44,507 bases of DNA, taken from positions 1 through 44,507 of the IMG/VR virus record IMGVR_UViG_3300006922_000047; one strand, written 5' to 3'. This DNA is from a virus. Positions 11,376 to 17,254 of this stretch are shown here, piece by piece. Every line of letters begins with the position of its first letter. Position 1 is the stretch's first letter. The notes beneath the pieces were generated by a model. The model saw nothing but the letters and a program-made list of their open reading frames with translations. It did no database searches and was not told the origin of the DNA. The position numbers and the translations under genes were made by a program.

Positions 11376-11383
11376 TATTTATG
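11376..11383 (-). promoter_or_regulatory. T4-type late promoter (CATAAATA) for gp8
   Basis: The minus strand reads CATAAATA, matching the relaxed NATAAATA late consensus reported for T4-like cyanophages. It overlaps the stop codon of the 1546-residue gene and lies 32 nt before the gp8 ATG, almost the same spacing as the exact TATAAATA before the distal fibre gene. Confidence 0.55.
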
Positions 11384-14300
11384 AGGTTTGTACAACTGTC
11401 TGATATTCGATACTCTTAATACGATAAGAAGCACCTGCATTACCTACAATGTTTTCCCCACCTAAGATAGCATATGCTGCAGCACCTGCTCCTGTAGTGT
11501 CACCCGAATCATTTGTGAATGTAATTGTAGGATGTAATACATTAGTTTCGACATATTGATTATATCCATATCCACCATTAGTAATAGTTAATGATTGAAT
11601 TTGATCTCCTGCAGCAGTTAATACGGCAGTAACAGTTGCCTGAATATCTCCATCATCTTCAACTGTTACAGTGGGAACAGCAGAATAGTTAATTCCTGGT
11701 TCTTGAACAACTAAATCAATAATAGTTCCTCTAGAAGAGAACTCATTCAGGAATCCGTTAACACCTTTGTTAACATTACCTGTGTTGAATGGAGTGATAC
11801 TAGAAAGCACCAATACTCCTGCAGTGCTATCCCAAGAAACTACAGTTCCAGTTACACCAGAAACAGATCCTGTAACAACCTCATTAACACCGAAGTTTAC
11901 ACCGTTACCAACAGTTTTATCTACAGTAACTCTAACTTGAGCAACATGCTCAACTCCTTCAGATAATCCACCAGCTGTATCAATGGTAGCAAATTTTTGT
12001 TGTGGGAAAGGTGTTGCATCTAAAATACTATCTCCAACAGCAAATAATGTAGTGTTTGTTCCACCTTGAGTTTCTTCAATACCATATAAGGAATTGAAAA
12101 TACCACCATCAAGACTAATCTGACCAGCGTAATCAGTACCAGCATTAATCAAATCGGGAATGCCATCTCCCAAAAATACTCCAGCATTATCAGGATCTTC
12201 GTTTTCATCATCATCCTCAAATGTTCTATCCTGAATACTTGAGATGGGAACAGTTAAGGTTGTAATATTATCACCAATAGAAACAATTGTATTATGTGGA
12301 AGTTGAGATGCCGTTGACGAATCTGGCAATCCACCTCCAAACTGCACAATAGCATCTTCGGTAGCAGCAAAACCAGCATCAATAAATGCCAACTCATCAA
12401 TTTCAAAAGTTACTAGAAGTTCCTTAGTAGCAGGATTCCAATCATATACTTTTGCTAATTTATTACTAGAACTTTCAACTCTTCTAGTAATAACGTCACC
12501 AACATTAAAATTGTAACTAGAAACACCAGCAACATCTTGAGTAGAATCTAATATAACTCTTTGGTCATAATTAAAATTCGTTCCTCTAGTAAGACCTGTA
12601 AATTTACCTGGTGCTTTACCCGTATAAGTGACAATTTCATTATTAAGAATAAACTGTCCAGAACCAGGGAATGCATTTGTAGAATTAACGAAGATTTCAG
12701 TAGCATCAGGAGTAGTTGTTTTAGTTAACCCTGTCAGATATTGGAATTGAGAATTTAGAGATTGTCTAGACCTAGTTTTTCTCTTTAAATTAATTAATTT
12801 AGTAAAGATAATCCTAGGGGGATTTACATATCCTTGTCCAGAATCTGTAAGTTCAATAGAACTAATTTTTCCTTGATCTATATTTGCGATTGCTTTAGCT
12901 CCACCGCCACCACCACCATCAATTAAAATAGTTGGAGGTTCTTGATAGAAATCTCCATCATCAGTGATTGTAATTGAAGTGACCTTACCCAAAGTAGAAA
13001 TTTCGGCAGCACCTTGAGCACCTTGTCCACCACCACCTTCAAATACAAGAGTTGGTGGAGTAGCAAAACTTCTACCCTCATTTCTAATAGTAAGACCAGT
13101 GATAGTTTGAACTACAGGAGAAGCAGTTCCTCCAGTACCTTCTCCACCAAGAACTCTTGCTTCAGCAGTTCCAAAATAACCATCACCATTTTTCGTCATT
13201 CTAATATAATCGATCGAACCATCATCTTTCAATACAACTTCTCCTTCTGCACCAGAAGGGGAAACAGAAGCAAGTTCTGGAACAGGGTCTCCTTCAAATA
13301 ATGGAGCACCAAAAAATTGGGGTCCAATACAGTAAGGATATGTGGGCGTTCCATTAGAAGATTCGGTCAAGAAATATGCATATGTACCATTTGGATATTC
13401 TGGTGTAACTACATACAAACCATTAAATTGATCTAAATCACCCTCTGTCGAATCATAGATATAATCTTGAACTAACATACCCATGGCATATCCATCTTGA
13501 ACACTCCTCACACCATACTGAGCATTTGCATACGAATAAGTATAAAGAGTTTTAGGTACATCAGATGGAATTACAATCTGCAATTGTCGGCTAGATGAAG
13601 TAGTAAATCCAGTAACATACTGAGAATAAGTTACTTCAGTTCCATCTAAACTATATGTAATTTTTGGATGTTGATATAGATAACTTAGATTTCCAACATC
13701 TCCAACATTTTGTGTTGGATGCCAACCATCAGAATCATTAGATAACAGTAAAATATTTCCATCATTCGATGCATCATCTTGATTGAAAATATATGTGTTT
13801 CCTCGTTTTAAATTGAGGAAGTTTGGGATAGAACCATCATATAAAAATTTACCACTAGAAACAGTTACCGCATAAGTCGTAGATGATGGATTAACCACCT
13901 CTTCCCTGGCACCATCAATTTCTGCTCCTACTTTTAATCTGTAAGAATCTGCTGCTCTTTGGACAGCATTATTAGCACCAAAATATCCATAAGGACCGTA
14001 TATGGGATATCCATCAAAAGACATACCAAGAATTTTGGAGTGTCCATCTGGATGCCTAGAGAAATCATCGTCTCCAGAACCAACAGTAATATTTCTAATA
14101 CCCCAATGATCGAAACCAGAACCATTAGCATTGTTTTGATATAAGAATACCGTTTGGTTGTTATTTCTAGATGCAGGAGGGACTGCAACTGTTATAGTTT
14201 TAAGTGTATCGAATGATGAGTCGTTATAACTGGCAACCTGAACAGAACCATAAGAAGTATTGAATGCAAAATATATGCGAAGTTCTTCATTAACATCGGG

Positions 14301-16019
14301 GTTCTCTCCACCATTAGAATCATTACCTCGGATTACTTCAACATCAAAGGTAACAACATTTCGTAAATCTAGATCAAATCTTACCCATCGCTGTCCCGCA
14401 TTACCACCTAATCTAAAGTGCTGTCCAATATCAAATCCGCCAGTGGTTCCATTACCAGATCCTGAACTTTCAATACTAGAATTTTTGAGATTTAAATCAT
14501 AATCAACTCCATTAATGAAGTCTGATGGTGTGATAGTAACTCTTTCTTGGAAGAAATCTGTAATGTAATAATCATTATCTGGAACTTCAGTGTCTTCAAC
14601 ACTACTTAAACTAATATATCCTTCTTGTCCTTCATATCCAGACATATATCTGTGATACTTACAGTAAAAGTAGATATTATTGGTTTCATCTCCATTCATA
14701 ATGAAGATGCTACTAAATGCATTTTCGTAATCAGCAGCGACTGCTGCAGAAGCACCAGTGCTATTATACAATAAACTTCCACTATTCAACTCTCCATCAG
14801 GAGTAGTACTAAACTGAATAGGGTGTCCTATACCTTGCTGATTTGATGCGTCAGATTGATCAAAGATGATTACATAATTCTTTCTTACCTGAATATTTTC
14901 TGGTGCTAGGTAATATGTATCGGGAATAAAAGAACCAAATAATGCCGCATCAGGACCAAAATTAATATAGAAAACATTTAATGAACGTGGAACACTACTA
15001 ATAGTGAAAGAGAATCCATTAGAACCAAGAACGGCAGAACTTTCTTGAAATGTTCCTGTTACATCTCTCAAGTAAATTTGCGTTATTACATTTTGAGCAT
15101 TTCTTACAATCTTTACAATTTCTGCCTCACCATCACCACCAATCTCTACAATAGTTCTACCTACCTCTACAACACCAATAGTCTCATCTAAGTCTGATAT
15201 ATCTACTAAAAGATTTCCATACTCGACTTTCAACTTCCAAGTGAATACTTTATGGAGACCCCAGTCAAGAACACTATGGTTTAACTTGAAATGATTTATT
15301 AATTTTGAAGATTGATAGTAATATGTATTGCTGTCAATAACTGCATCATAAACATCAGACTGCTTTACATTAGACTCTAGTACAGTGTCTAATTCAAATC
15401 CTATAGGGGCATCACCAGCAGCTGCTCCCCACTCTGGTGTGTGTAAGAATACACCATTTGCCATAATACCAAGTGATTTATTCTTTTGGAATGTTCTATT
15501 CTGTCCAAAAGGAACCTGTTTACCACCTCTATAGATGAAAACTTGGTCAAAATTTCTATCTAATATTAGACCCGACCCATCTCTTTCTGTGAGAATGTCT
15601 GCTGGTTTTGGATCATTATCACTAACAATTCTAAGTCTATCTACTAAATTCCCCTCAGGATCAACTTCAAAAGTCCCTGAAGTAAGAGAGTTTGGATAGT
15701 TTTGCCAAATCCTATTAATATCAAAAGAATTGATAACACCCAGAGATTCTGATGTGGGAACAATCTGCAATCTTAAAGGATCATATCCACGTCCTCTTTC
15801 TAAGACTCTGATATGAATAATCTTACCAGAATCAGAATCAATAATTGGATATAATATTGCTTCTGCTTCGGGAATGCCACAACCCGTGATAGTCAATCTA
15901 GGGGGATCTGTAGGATCATATCCTATACCAGGATTGATTACTTCTACAGCACGAACACCGAATAAATTATCAAAGATAGGCTTAATTTGTGCGCCTGATC
16001 CAGGAACTGTTCTTGCCAT
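11379..16019 (-). CDS. YHYH/cupredoxin multidomain virion structural protein (1546 aa)
   Basis: A modular tail protein. Approximate order by residue: Gly-rich repeats 18-92; a beta region; cupredoxin-like domain 345-475 with H399, C453, H456 and M459 (GHP ... YCKYHRYM); a jelly-roll domain 515-650 (GTTGGFDIGQHF to FDHWGIRNI); YHYH domain 660-905 (MSFDGYPIYGPYGYFG ... LDQFNGLYVVTPEYPNG) with a second, ligand-less cupredoxin-like unit apparently nested at about 714-838; Gly-rich repeats near 970-1070; a DATEIFVNSTNAFPGSG module near 1105; an acidic DENEDPDN loop near 1275; a VGE-type module near 1390; and a final repeat. The ATG follows GAGG by 6 nt. No enzyme motif is visible. It is likely part of the adsorption apparatus. 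The family is recognisable from marine phage structural proteins; the function is unproven. Confidence 0.8.
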   Translation of the reverse strand: MARTVPGSGAQIKPIFDNLFGVRAVEVINPGIGYDPTDPPRLTITGCGIPEAEAILYPIIDSDSGKIIHIRVLERGRGYDPLRLQIVPTSESLGVINSFDINRIWQNYPNSLTSGTFEVDPEGNLVDRLRIVSDNDPKPADILTERDGSGLILDRNFDQVFIYRGGKQVPFGQNRTFQKNKSLGIMANGVFLHTPEWGAAAGDAPIGFELDTVLESNVKQSDVYDAVIDSNTYYYQSSKLINHFKLNHSVLDWGLHKVFTWKLKVEYGNLLVDISDLDETIGVVEVGRTIVEIGGDGEAEIVKIVRNAQNVITQIYLRDVTGTFQESSAVLGSNGFSFTISSVPRSLNVFYINFGPDAALFGSFIPDTYYLAPENIQVRKNYVIIFDQSDASNQQGIGHPIQFSTTPDGELNSGSLLYNSTGASAAVAADYENAFSSIFIMNGDETNNIYFYCKYHRYMSGYEGQEGYISLSSVEDTEVPDNDYYITDFFQERVTITPSDFINGVDYDLNLKNSSIESSGSGNGTTGGFDIGQHFRLGGNAGQRWVRFDLDLRNVVTFDVEVIRGNDSNGGENPDVNEELRIYFAFNTSYGSVQVASYNDSSFDTLKTITVAVPPASRNNNQTVFLYQNNANGSGFDHWGIRNITVGSGDDDFSRHPDGHSKILGMSFDGYPIYGPYGYFGANNAVQRAADSYRLKVGAEIDGAREEVVNPSSTTYAVTVSSGKFLYDGSIPNFLNLKRGNTYIFNQDDASNDGNILLLSNDSDGWHPTQNVGDVGNLSYLYQHPKITYSLDGTEVTYSQYVTGFTTSSSRQLQIVIPSDVPKTLYTYSYANAQYGVRSVQDGYAMGMLVQDYIYDSTEGDLDQFNGLYVVTPEYPNGTYAYFLTESSNGTPTYPYCIGPQFFGAPLFEGDPVPELASVSPSGAEGEVVLKDDGSIDYIRMTKNGDGYFGTAEARVLGGEGTGGTASPVVQTITGLTIRNEGRSFATPPTLVFEGGGGQGAQGAAEISTLGKVTSITITDDGDFYQEPPTILIDGGGGGGAKAIANIDQGKISSIELTDSGQGYVNPPRIIFTKLINLKRKTRSRQSLNSQFQYLTGLTKTTTPDATEIFVNSTNAFPGSGQFILNNEIVTYTGKAPGKFTGLTRGTNFNYDQRVILDSTQDVAGVSSYNFNVGDVITRRVESSSNKLAKVYDWNPATKELLVTFEIDELAFIDAGFAATEDAIVQFGGGLPDSSTASQLPHNTIVSIGDNITTLTVPISSIQDRTFEDDDENEDPDNAGVFLGDGIPDLINAGTDYAGQISLDGGIFNSLYGIEETQGGTNTTLFAVGDSILDATPFPQQKFATIDTAGGLSEGVEHVAQVRVTVDKTVGNGVNFGVNEVVTGSVSGVTGTVVSWDSTAGVLVLSSITPFNTGNVNKGVNGFLNEFSSRGTIIDLVVQEPGINYSAVPTVTVEDDGDIQATVTAVLTAAGDQIQSLTITNGGYGYNQYVETNVLHPTITFTNDSGDTTGAGAAAYAILGGENIVGNAGASYRIKSIEYQTVVQTS

Positions 16020-16027
16020 TTATACCC

Positions 16028-17254
16028 TCAGTTTACTACGATAATGGTGCCGTTCATAGCAGCGTGTACTGTACACTGATAATAAAGAGTATTGGGTGAA
16101 TCCATAGGAACAGTCCAATACAAAACTGTTTGACCATTACCTGATTGGCCAGTGGTATACGGGTTACCACTCAATCCAGTTGTAGATTGAATTCTAAATG
16201 GGTGACTAGCACCATTTGAAGTGTTATCAAAAGCATAGGTGAAACCCCTATAAACATAAATCGTGGGGTCATTTACAGTTACAGGGAAACCAGGACCACT
16301 AAACGTATAATCATTTGCACCACTAGAACCAATTTCCCACCAAGTAAGAGGACTTGCTGTTCTTACCCAAGATGTTCCATTGTAGAACAAATTGTCACCT
16401 TGAGTCAGTCCAGTAAAGTCGGTATCTGTCATACCCGACAATGTACTGGTAACAACACCAGAAAAATCAATAGTGAGTGTATCACCAGTGATTGCCGTCG
16501 TAATATTATTACCACCAGCAATTGTTACTGTATCTGCAGAACTATCTGCTGTTGTACTTCCAGTATCTGCTGCTATTGTTGAGAATAAATTAAGATTGGT
16601 TAGACCAGACTGGTCATCCTGAGGCAACCATTTACTGGAACTAGAACTCCATTTTAAAACTTGGTCATTGGTTGGGGCAGTAGTGGTCGTATCAACATCA
16701 TTAAGATCGTTAACACTAGAGTACTGCGTAAGAAGTGCTGCCTGAGTATCACCAACACCACCTGCAGTAATATTCATATTCACATAAGGATTATCATCAC
16801 CATCAACAGTGAAAAAATACCCAGGATATGCTGCTGAAGTAGGTGCATTGCCAATTGAAGTATATTCGTTTTTATACTTGATTGACGTAGGGAAGTCAAT
16901 GGTGCCATCAGAACCTTCAAAAGTAGTTACGGTTCCTCCAGCAGTAATAACTACATCTCCTGTTCCGTTAGGAGTAATTGGAATATTCCCATTGCCACTA
17001 GAAATAATTCCATGTATATCAACATCTAGAGATGTTGTGAGCACTGCAAAGTCGGCAGAAACAAAGCTGCTGCCATTATATTTTAATACATGACCACTAG
17101 CAGCATTTGCTGTGGTCAGTGCTAAGGCAGAACCGTTGCCGAGCGTAGAATAAATTTCATCAAAATTATCATTAATTTTATCACCACCAACACGGAGGGT
17201 ATCCCCCGTGCTGTCATTCGCTGCGCCACCTAATCCAAGAGTTTGTTTAGCCAT
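16028..17254 (-). CDS. Tail fibre with C-terminal plastocyanin-like (cupredoxin) domain (408 aa)
   Basis: The N-terminus (NDSTGDTLRVGGDKINDNFD, then EIYSTLG) is the common fibre-anchor motif 'NDGTGDTLRxAFxKxNxNFxELY'. The middle, about residues 60-300, is a Ser/Thr/Asn/Asp-rich fibre shaft. Residues about 310-408 form a cupredoxin-like domain: YVYRGFTYAFDN, then SHPFRIQ (H351), and finally LYYQCTVHAAMNGTI with C394, H397 and M400. The His ... Cys-x2-His-x2-Met-x-Gly pattern matches the ligands of blue-copper domains such as plastocyanin/azurin-like families. There is no signal peptide, so this is not a periplasmic electron carrier; it would be displayed on the virion. A GATAAATA late promoter lies 20 nt upstream. 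Structural role is confident; copper binding is inferred from the residues only. Confidence 0.82.
   Translation of the reverse strand: MAKQTLGLGGAANDSTGDTLRVGGDKINDNFDEIYSTLGNGSALALTTANAASGHVLKYNGSSFVSADFAVLTTSLDVDIHGIISSGNGNIPITPNGTGDVVITAGGTVTTFEGSDGTIDFPTSIKYKNEYTSIGNAPTSAAYPGYFFTVDGDDNPYVNMNITAGGVGDTQAALLTQYSSVNDLNDVDTTTTAPTNDQVLKWSSSSSKWLPQDDQSGLTNLNLFSTIAADTGSTTADSSADTVTIAGGNNITTAITGDTLTIDFSGVVTSTLSGMTDTDFTGLTQGDNLFYNGTSWVRTASPLTWWEIGSSGANDYTFSGPGFPVTVNDPTIYVYRGFTYAFDNTSNGASHPFRIQSTTGLSGNPYTTGQSGNGQTVLYWTVPMDSPNTLYYQCTVHAAMNGTIIVVN

Follow-up and report, generated by a model that had tools for sequence, protein, structure and literature searches.

Results

A putative metal site in a cyanophage baseplate protein

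A 1546-aa baseplate wedge protein of a T4-like marine cyanophage contains a region, here named D1, which on the evidence of profile comparisons and of matches to viral structure models is probably (we would put it at roughly 0.7) a divergent cupredoxin domain with a His-Cys-His-Met set forming a putative type 1-like mononuclear metal site, likeliest for copper, that has been kept by selection. The window, that is, the whole stretch of DNA analysed, is a 44.5-kb piece of such a phage. The features on which the analysis is based are the following:

11379..16019, minus strand: 1546-aa baseplate wedge subunit, housing D1 and D2 (phrog_708 match and annotations of relatives)
14595..14987, minus strand: D1, ligand-complete cupredoxin-like domain, residues 345-475 (ligands, profiles, structure model)
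14823..14825, minus strand: H399, putative first His ligand (invariant; codons CAT 95, CAC 32)
14661..14663, minus strand: C453, putative Cys ligand (invariant; codons TGT 100, TGC 27)
14652..14654, minus strand: H456, putative second His ligand (invariant; codons CAC 79, CAT 48)
14643..14645, minus strand: M459, putative axial Met ligand (invariant)
13482..13907, minus strand: D2, second cupredoxin-like domain of the 1546-aa protein, residues ~705-846, with N755, S829, N832 and Y835 at the ligand positions (profile hit, E 2e-6)
16028..17254, minus strand: gp9, 408-aa baseplate wedge tail fibre connector, the neighbouring "fibre" (PF07880, E 3e-9; phrog_677)
16031..16360, minus strand: gp9 C-terminal cupredoxin domain, residues 299-408, with ligands H351, C394, H397 and M400 (profiles, structure model, invariance)

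The assignment of the host protein to the T4-like baseplate wedge comes from a match to phrog_708 (baseplate wedge subunit) that covers residues 1-1545 with 2309 bits and from its position in a baseplate cluster with gp25, gp6, gp9 and gp8, the minus-strand order being phrog_719, gp25, gp6, a 6421-aa gp7-like protein, gp9, the 1546-aa protein, gp8 and a 2645-aa protein. Relatives of the 1546-aa protein are annotated as "baseplate wedge initiator" or gp7-like. The nearest named one is that of Synechococcus phage ACG-2014b (93% aa identity), with S-RIM50, S-RIM8 and ACG-2014g as further close relatives, and wherever a taxonomy was given the assignment was to Kyanoviridae. In S-CAM8 and P-SSM3 the homologous gene is split near its start, at about residues 139 and 186 (loci L138 and L141), either by a true break or by a sequencing error.

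When the codons were located on the minus strand, H399, C453, H456 and M459 were found at exactly the numbers given in the first-pass annotation, whose coordinates for the domain are also right, as residues 345-475 correspond to 14595-14987. These residues follow the order of a type 1 copper site, His ... Cys-xn-His-xn-Met (or Gln). Two C-x2-H-x2-M motifs are present among the 13,529 aa of large window ORFs, one in the 1546-aa protein and one in gp9, whereas composition shuffles gave an expectation of 0.006.

D1 is related to cupredoxins mainly through its sister domains

The predicted structure clearly identifies the C-terminal domain of gp9 as a cupredoxin. Its model (pLDDT 95) matched only cupredoxins, all 50 matches listed by VIA being copper proteins, with copper nitrite reductase 2dv6 as the best (Z 11.0, rmsd 2.0 over 92 residues) followed by rusticyanin, small laccases and auracyanin; the Foldseek E-value was 5.8e-5. 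Its alignments to amicyanin, to halocyanin and to the type 1 domain of copper nitrite reductase run from end to end. With weak E-values, the sequence profile of the gp9 domain also finds amicyanin and the nitrite reductase, the two better-scoring rows in that search being repetitive TPR designs without a single significant stretch.

The direct evidence for D1 itself is modest. Its AlphaFold model is confident (pLDDT 89, pTM 0.83), and the matches it gave in the PDB were weak, with Ig domains among them: the highest-ranking cupredoxin was the copper protein 5fc9, the second-best VIA row (Z 4.1, rmsd 2.9 over 79 residues), with plastocyanin at Z 3.3, and Foldseek against the PDB returned weak Ig-like rows with no cupredoxin among the 50 matches listed. 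Searches of Pfam, NCBIfam and PDB sequences with D1 gave no copper-protein match. No curated copper-protein family model recognised D1 above its cut-off, and the gp9 domain reached halocyanin at E 0.0011, also below the cut-off; existing models of this kind do not cover the D1 and gp9 domains of cyanophages.

In contrast, the indirect evidence, through the gp9 domain and other ligand-bearing copies, is strong. In profile-profile comparisons D1 matched the gp9 domain at E 2e-4 and a profile of ligand-complete D2 and nested copies (see below) at E 2e-8, in both cases with the ligands in register. The D1 model also resembles viral models of ligand-bearing cyanophage tail proteins from S-TIM5, P-SSM2 and S-SCSM1 and the gp9 of S-RIM14. 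Thus, D1 is linked to accepted members of the family by the gp9 and D2/nested profiles and by the structural matches to S-RIM14 gp9 and S-TIM5. It had been claimed that D1 carries the same ligand pattern as the neighbouring gp9 with little other identity, and both halves of this description are borne out, all four ligands being in register at 25% identity over 73 profile columns.

It could be argued that the motif arose by coincidence and that D1 is no cupredoxin at all, as its best Foldseek rows in the PDB are weak Ig-like domains. Nevertheless, the excess of the motif over shuffled sequences, the profile homology with ligands in register and the matches to viral models make this scarcely credible.

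The four ligands are invariant in D1 and gp9

The D1 loci were fetched by residues 1-340 of the 1546-aa protein only and the gp9 loci by residues 1-298 of gp9 only, so that neither set was chosen on its ligands; one further set of homologues was partly chosen on the motif. All four ligands were kept in about 126 distinct D1 segments with zero losses, and they were present in 128 of 128 gp9 domains. Therefore, frequent loss of single ligands among close homologues, named beforehand as the observation that would speak against metal binding, was looked for and not a single case was found in either domain. Raw counts of D1 rows with full His, Cys, His and Met were 98 in one alignment set and 129 in another; the figure of about 126 is quoted because some of the counted rows were ACG-2014d-type proteins in which BLAST had aligned D2 to D1, and the rows that seemed ligand-complete in both domains, being misplacements of this same type, were excluded from the counts. 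The codons of the D1 His and Cys ligands vary synonymously.

Among 51 representative D1 rows, the ligands are four of 29 invariant columns out of 141, with a chance probability of 0.0015. The expectation that they would be more conserved than their surroundings holds, though not for the ligands alone: they are among the most conserved sites of D1, and about 25 other columns are equally invariant. The latter observation is in line with an alternative in which the four residues are kept for structure without any metal, for instance as a buried packing and hydrogen-bond cluster, an explanation that the results on D2 and on the wider family, described below, render unlikely. The argument of the first-pass annotation that two independent proteins preserving the ligands suggest selection on metal binding is supported as to selection, with the qualification that the two domains are homologous copies rather than independent inventions.

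At the level of the whole protein, 103 ORFs of 1300-1800 aa matched the 1546-aa protein, and in 101 of them C-x2-H-x2-M was found exactly once. One exception (L163) was discarded as a homologue, as it turned out to be a YHYH protein of another kind that has no cupredoxin, and the other (L077) has an extra ligand-complete copy. This L077 cupredoxin sits at a place matching residues 548-647 of the 1546-aa protein, a region that in the window is Reelin-subrepeat-like (E 1e-4, below the cut-off) and is absent from several relatives.

D2 is a paralogous copy that has lost the ligands

A ligand-free second copy inside the same protein, D2, had been overlooked in the first-pass annotation. It lies just past a conserved segment, IYGP, in the YHYH region and matches the family profile at E 2e-6 in the window and down to 5e-13 in relatives. 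Cysteine is absent from D2 of the window and from 100 of the 121 distinct D2 sequences, and 46 residue combinations occupy the ligand positions across relatives. Among D1-containing homologues, D2 retains at most one of the four ligands and is never ligand-complete, although in every one of them it keeps its place and the family signature. Since D2 keeps this signature with none of the four residues, the fold of the family does not need them. This result argues against a purely structural role of the D1 ligands and, as those of D1 and gp9 are invariant while D2 has lost its own, selection seems to act on the metal site and not on the fold alone.

A different situation was found in the sister lineage, which is without D1 (ACG-2014d, S-SSM4, S-SSM2 and S-ShM2), in which D2 is ligand-complete. 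As D2 is complete where D1 is absent and degenerate where it is present, nearly every full-length protein has exactly one C-x2-H-x2-M. In a tree of the shared C-terminal region, the sampled D1-less proteins form one group with a support of 0.90 and, as there is one split on the tree, the exchange between D1 and D2 would be one historical event, not many.

The comparison also bears on the idea that D1 is an adhesion domain, like the ephrins with their copper-free cupredoxin fold, in which the ligands are an ancestral relic. The family does sit in fibre, spike and connector proteins, and copper-free copies do exist (D2 and a phrog_693 tail fibre protein), but a relic would be expected to decay as D2 did, whereas the D1 sequences are undecayed with synonymous change at the same codons, so we regard this idea as very improbable.

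Upstream of gp9, the D1-less phages have a separate ORF (L136:1844-3607, L140:996-2717 and L143:67-1839), about 590 aa long, in which the motif YHYH is literally present; the literal motif was not found in the 1546-aa protein of the window.

Site variation in the wider family

Profile scanning of 27 phage genomes revealed one to five copies of the domain in 25 of them, and no copy was found in T4 and P-SSP7. The copies occur in fibre, spike and connector proteins, including podovirus and tail-spike proteins. Ligand-free copies exist beyond D2, an example being the phrog_693 tail fibre protein of about 490 aa (L276:173-1618 and equivalents), which has a ligand-free cupredoxin-like copy in most of the T4-like cyanophages scanned.

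Eleven proteins of one clade have an extra copy nested inside D1 that reads H, C, H, Gln, and the D1 split by it retains its own four ligands. This nested copy, at about residues 430-570 of the homologue (L199, L201-L203, L206, L218, L220, L222, L223, L225 and L227), is thus a domain within its own paralogue. P-RSM6 holds a similar Gln copy, and one P-HM1 copy reads C-x2-H-x3-M. Both an axial Gln and altered loop lengths are familiar from type 1 copper proteins, stellacyanin and plastocyanin among them. By analogy, a change of Met to Gln or a longer loop with His, Cys and His kept would be variation of the kind seen in real metal sites, and the same trend appeared in 23 diverse copies, which had been picked by motif, where only the two His and the Cys were invariant and Met was present in more than 90%. 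Both observations speak against the four residues being kept for structure only.

Discussion

The results above suggest that these cyanophages probably carry a metal site, likely for copper, in their infection machinery. We infer that the virion binds a metal at this site and that the metal would be copper in preference to zinc or iron. In a competing explanation, which we consider rather unlikely, zinc or iron would act as a purely structural staple. In its favour, Zn or Fe could likewise be bound by Cys and His ligands, and D1 is synthesised in the cytoplasm, which contains little free copper. Ions of this kind are known from the baseplates and fibres of phages. In the long tail fibre of T4, iron is coordinated by HxH sites (as cited in PMC11705849). 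On the other hand, His-Cys-His-Met on a cupredoxin scaffold is the type 1 arrangement of copper, and the closest structures to the gp9 domain are type 1 copper proteins.

If copper is the metal, the D1 site would acquire it from seawater or from the host upon lysis, because the domain is made in the cytoplasm; copper would be taken up during or after virion release and would stiffen or switch that part of the baseplate. The bound metal could perhaps hold together the ligand loop of an exposed baseplate or fibre-connector domain and, more speculatively, might make this domain sensitive to copper or redox conditions at adsorption. It is doubtful that the proposal extends to its most general form, in which cyanophage virions would have type 1-like copper sites in both baseplate and fibre connector, copper would be an adsorption sensor or redox trigger, and evolution would regulate the number and place of ligand-complete domains, with one per wedge protein, either D1 or D2.

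The site was also considered, and rejected, as an explanation of light-dependent adsorption. S-PM2, reportedly known for this behaviour, has one degenerate match only, which speaks against it. The profile scan gave five matches in P-HM2, which is reported to adsorb hardly at all in the dark, and none in P-SSP7, which adsorbs equally (PMC7112961); two phages prove nothing in this respect.

Should copper occupy these sites, the apparatus for recognising and opening the host would include a metal cofactor in a group of viruses that is very common in the ocean. Phage infection would be tied to the copper and redox chemistry of seawater, beside the iron link already proposed, and cyanophage adsorption would have a testable cofactor. 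In a literature search that covered few of the subscription journals, no paper on cupredoxins or plastocyanin-like proteins in cyanophage tails or phage baseplates was found.

Compared with known systems, D1 has the ligand order and spacing of amicyanin (His, then Cys-x2-His-x2-Met). However, amicyanin, halocyanin and the nitrite reductase domain are small carriers of the cell envelope or enzyme domains, whereas D1 is internal to a 1546-aa virion baseplate protein, so that it does not qualify as a carrier of the amicyanin/halocyanin type, which is a separate, secreted or membrane-anchored small protein; D1 also has little sequence similarity and, on its own, weak structural similarity to these three. 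Another counterpart is the C-terminal domain of cyanophage gp9 (phrog_677), encoded by the adjacent gene, which belongs to the same family and has the same four ligands, although it is compact (110 aa), C-terminal and gives a clear cupredoxin model, while D1 is internal and, with its additional segments, longer. For iron, the occurrence of metal in phage fibres is already established: in the tail fibres of T4 and of marine phages, HxH sites (the Ferrojan or Trojan horse idea, PMC11705849) place iron in virion proteins of adsorption, as proposed here for the metal of D1, with the difference that the iron lies between HxH pairs of a trimeric fibre whereas D1 would have one intradomain His-Cys-His-Met site. 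Finally, D2 is comparable to the ephrins and other copper-free cupredoxin folds in being cupredoxin-like without ligands, and D1 differs from them in having all four without exception; the presence of ligand-complete and ligand-free copies in one protein constitutes a clean natural experiment on what a type 1 site adds to the fold.
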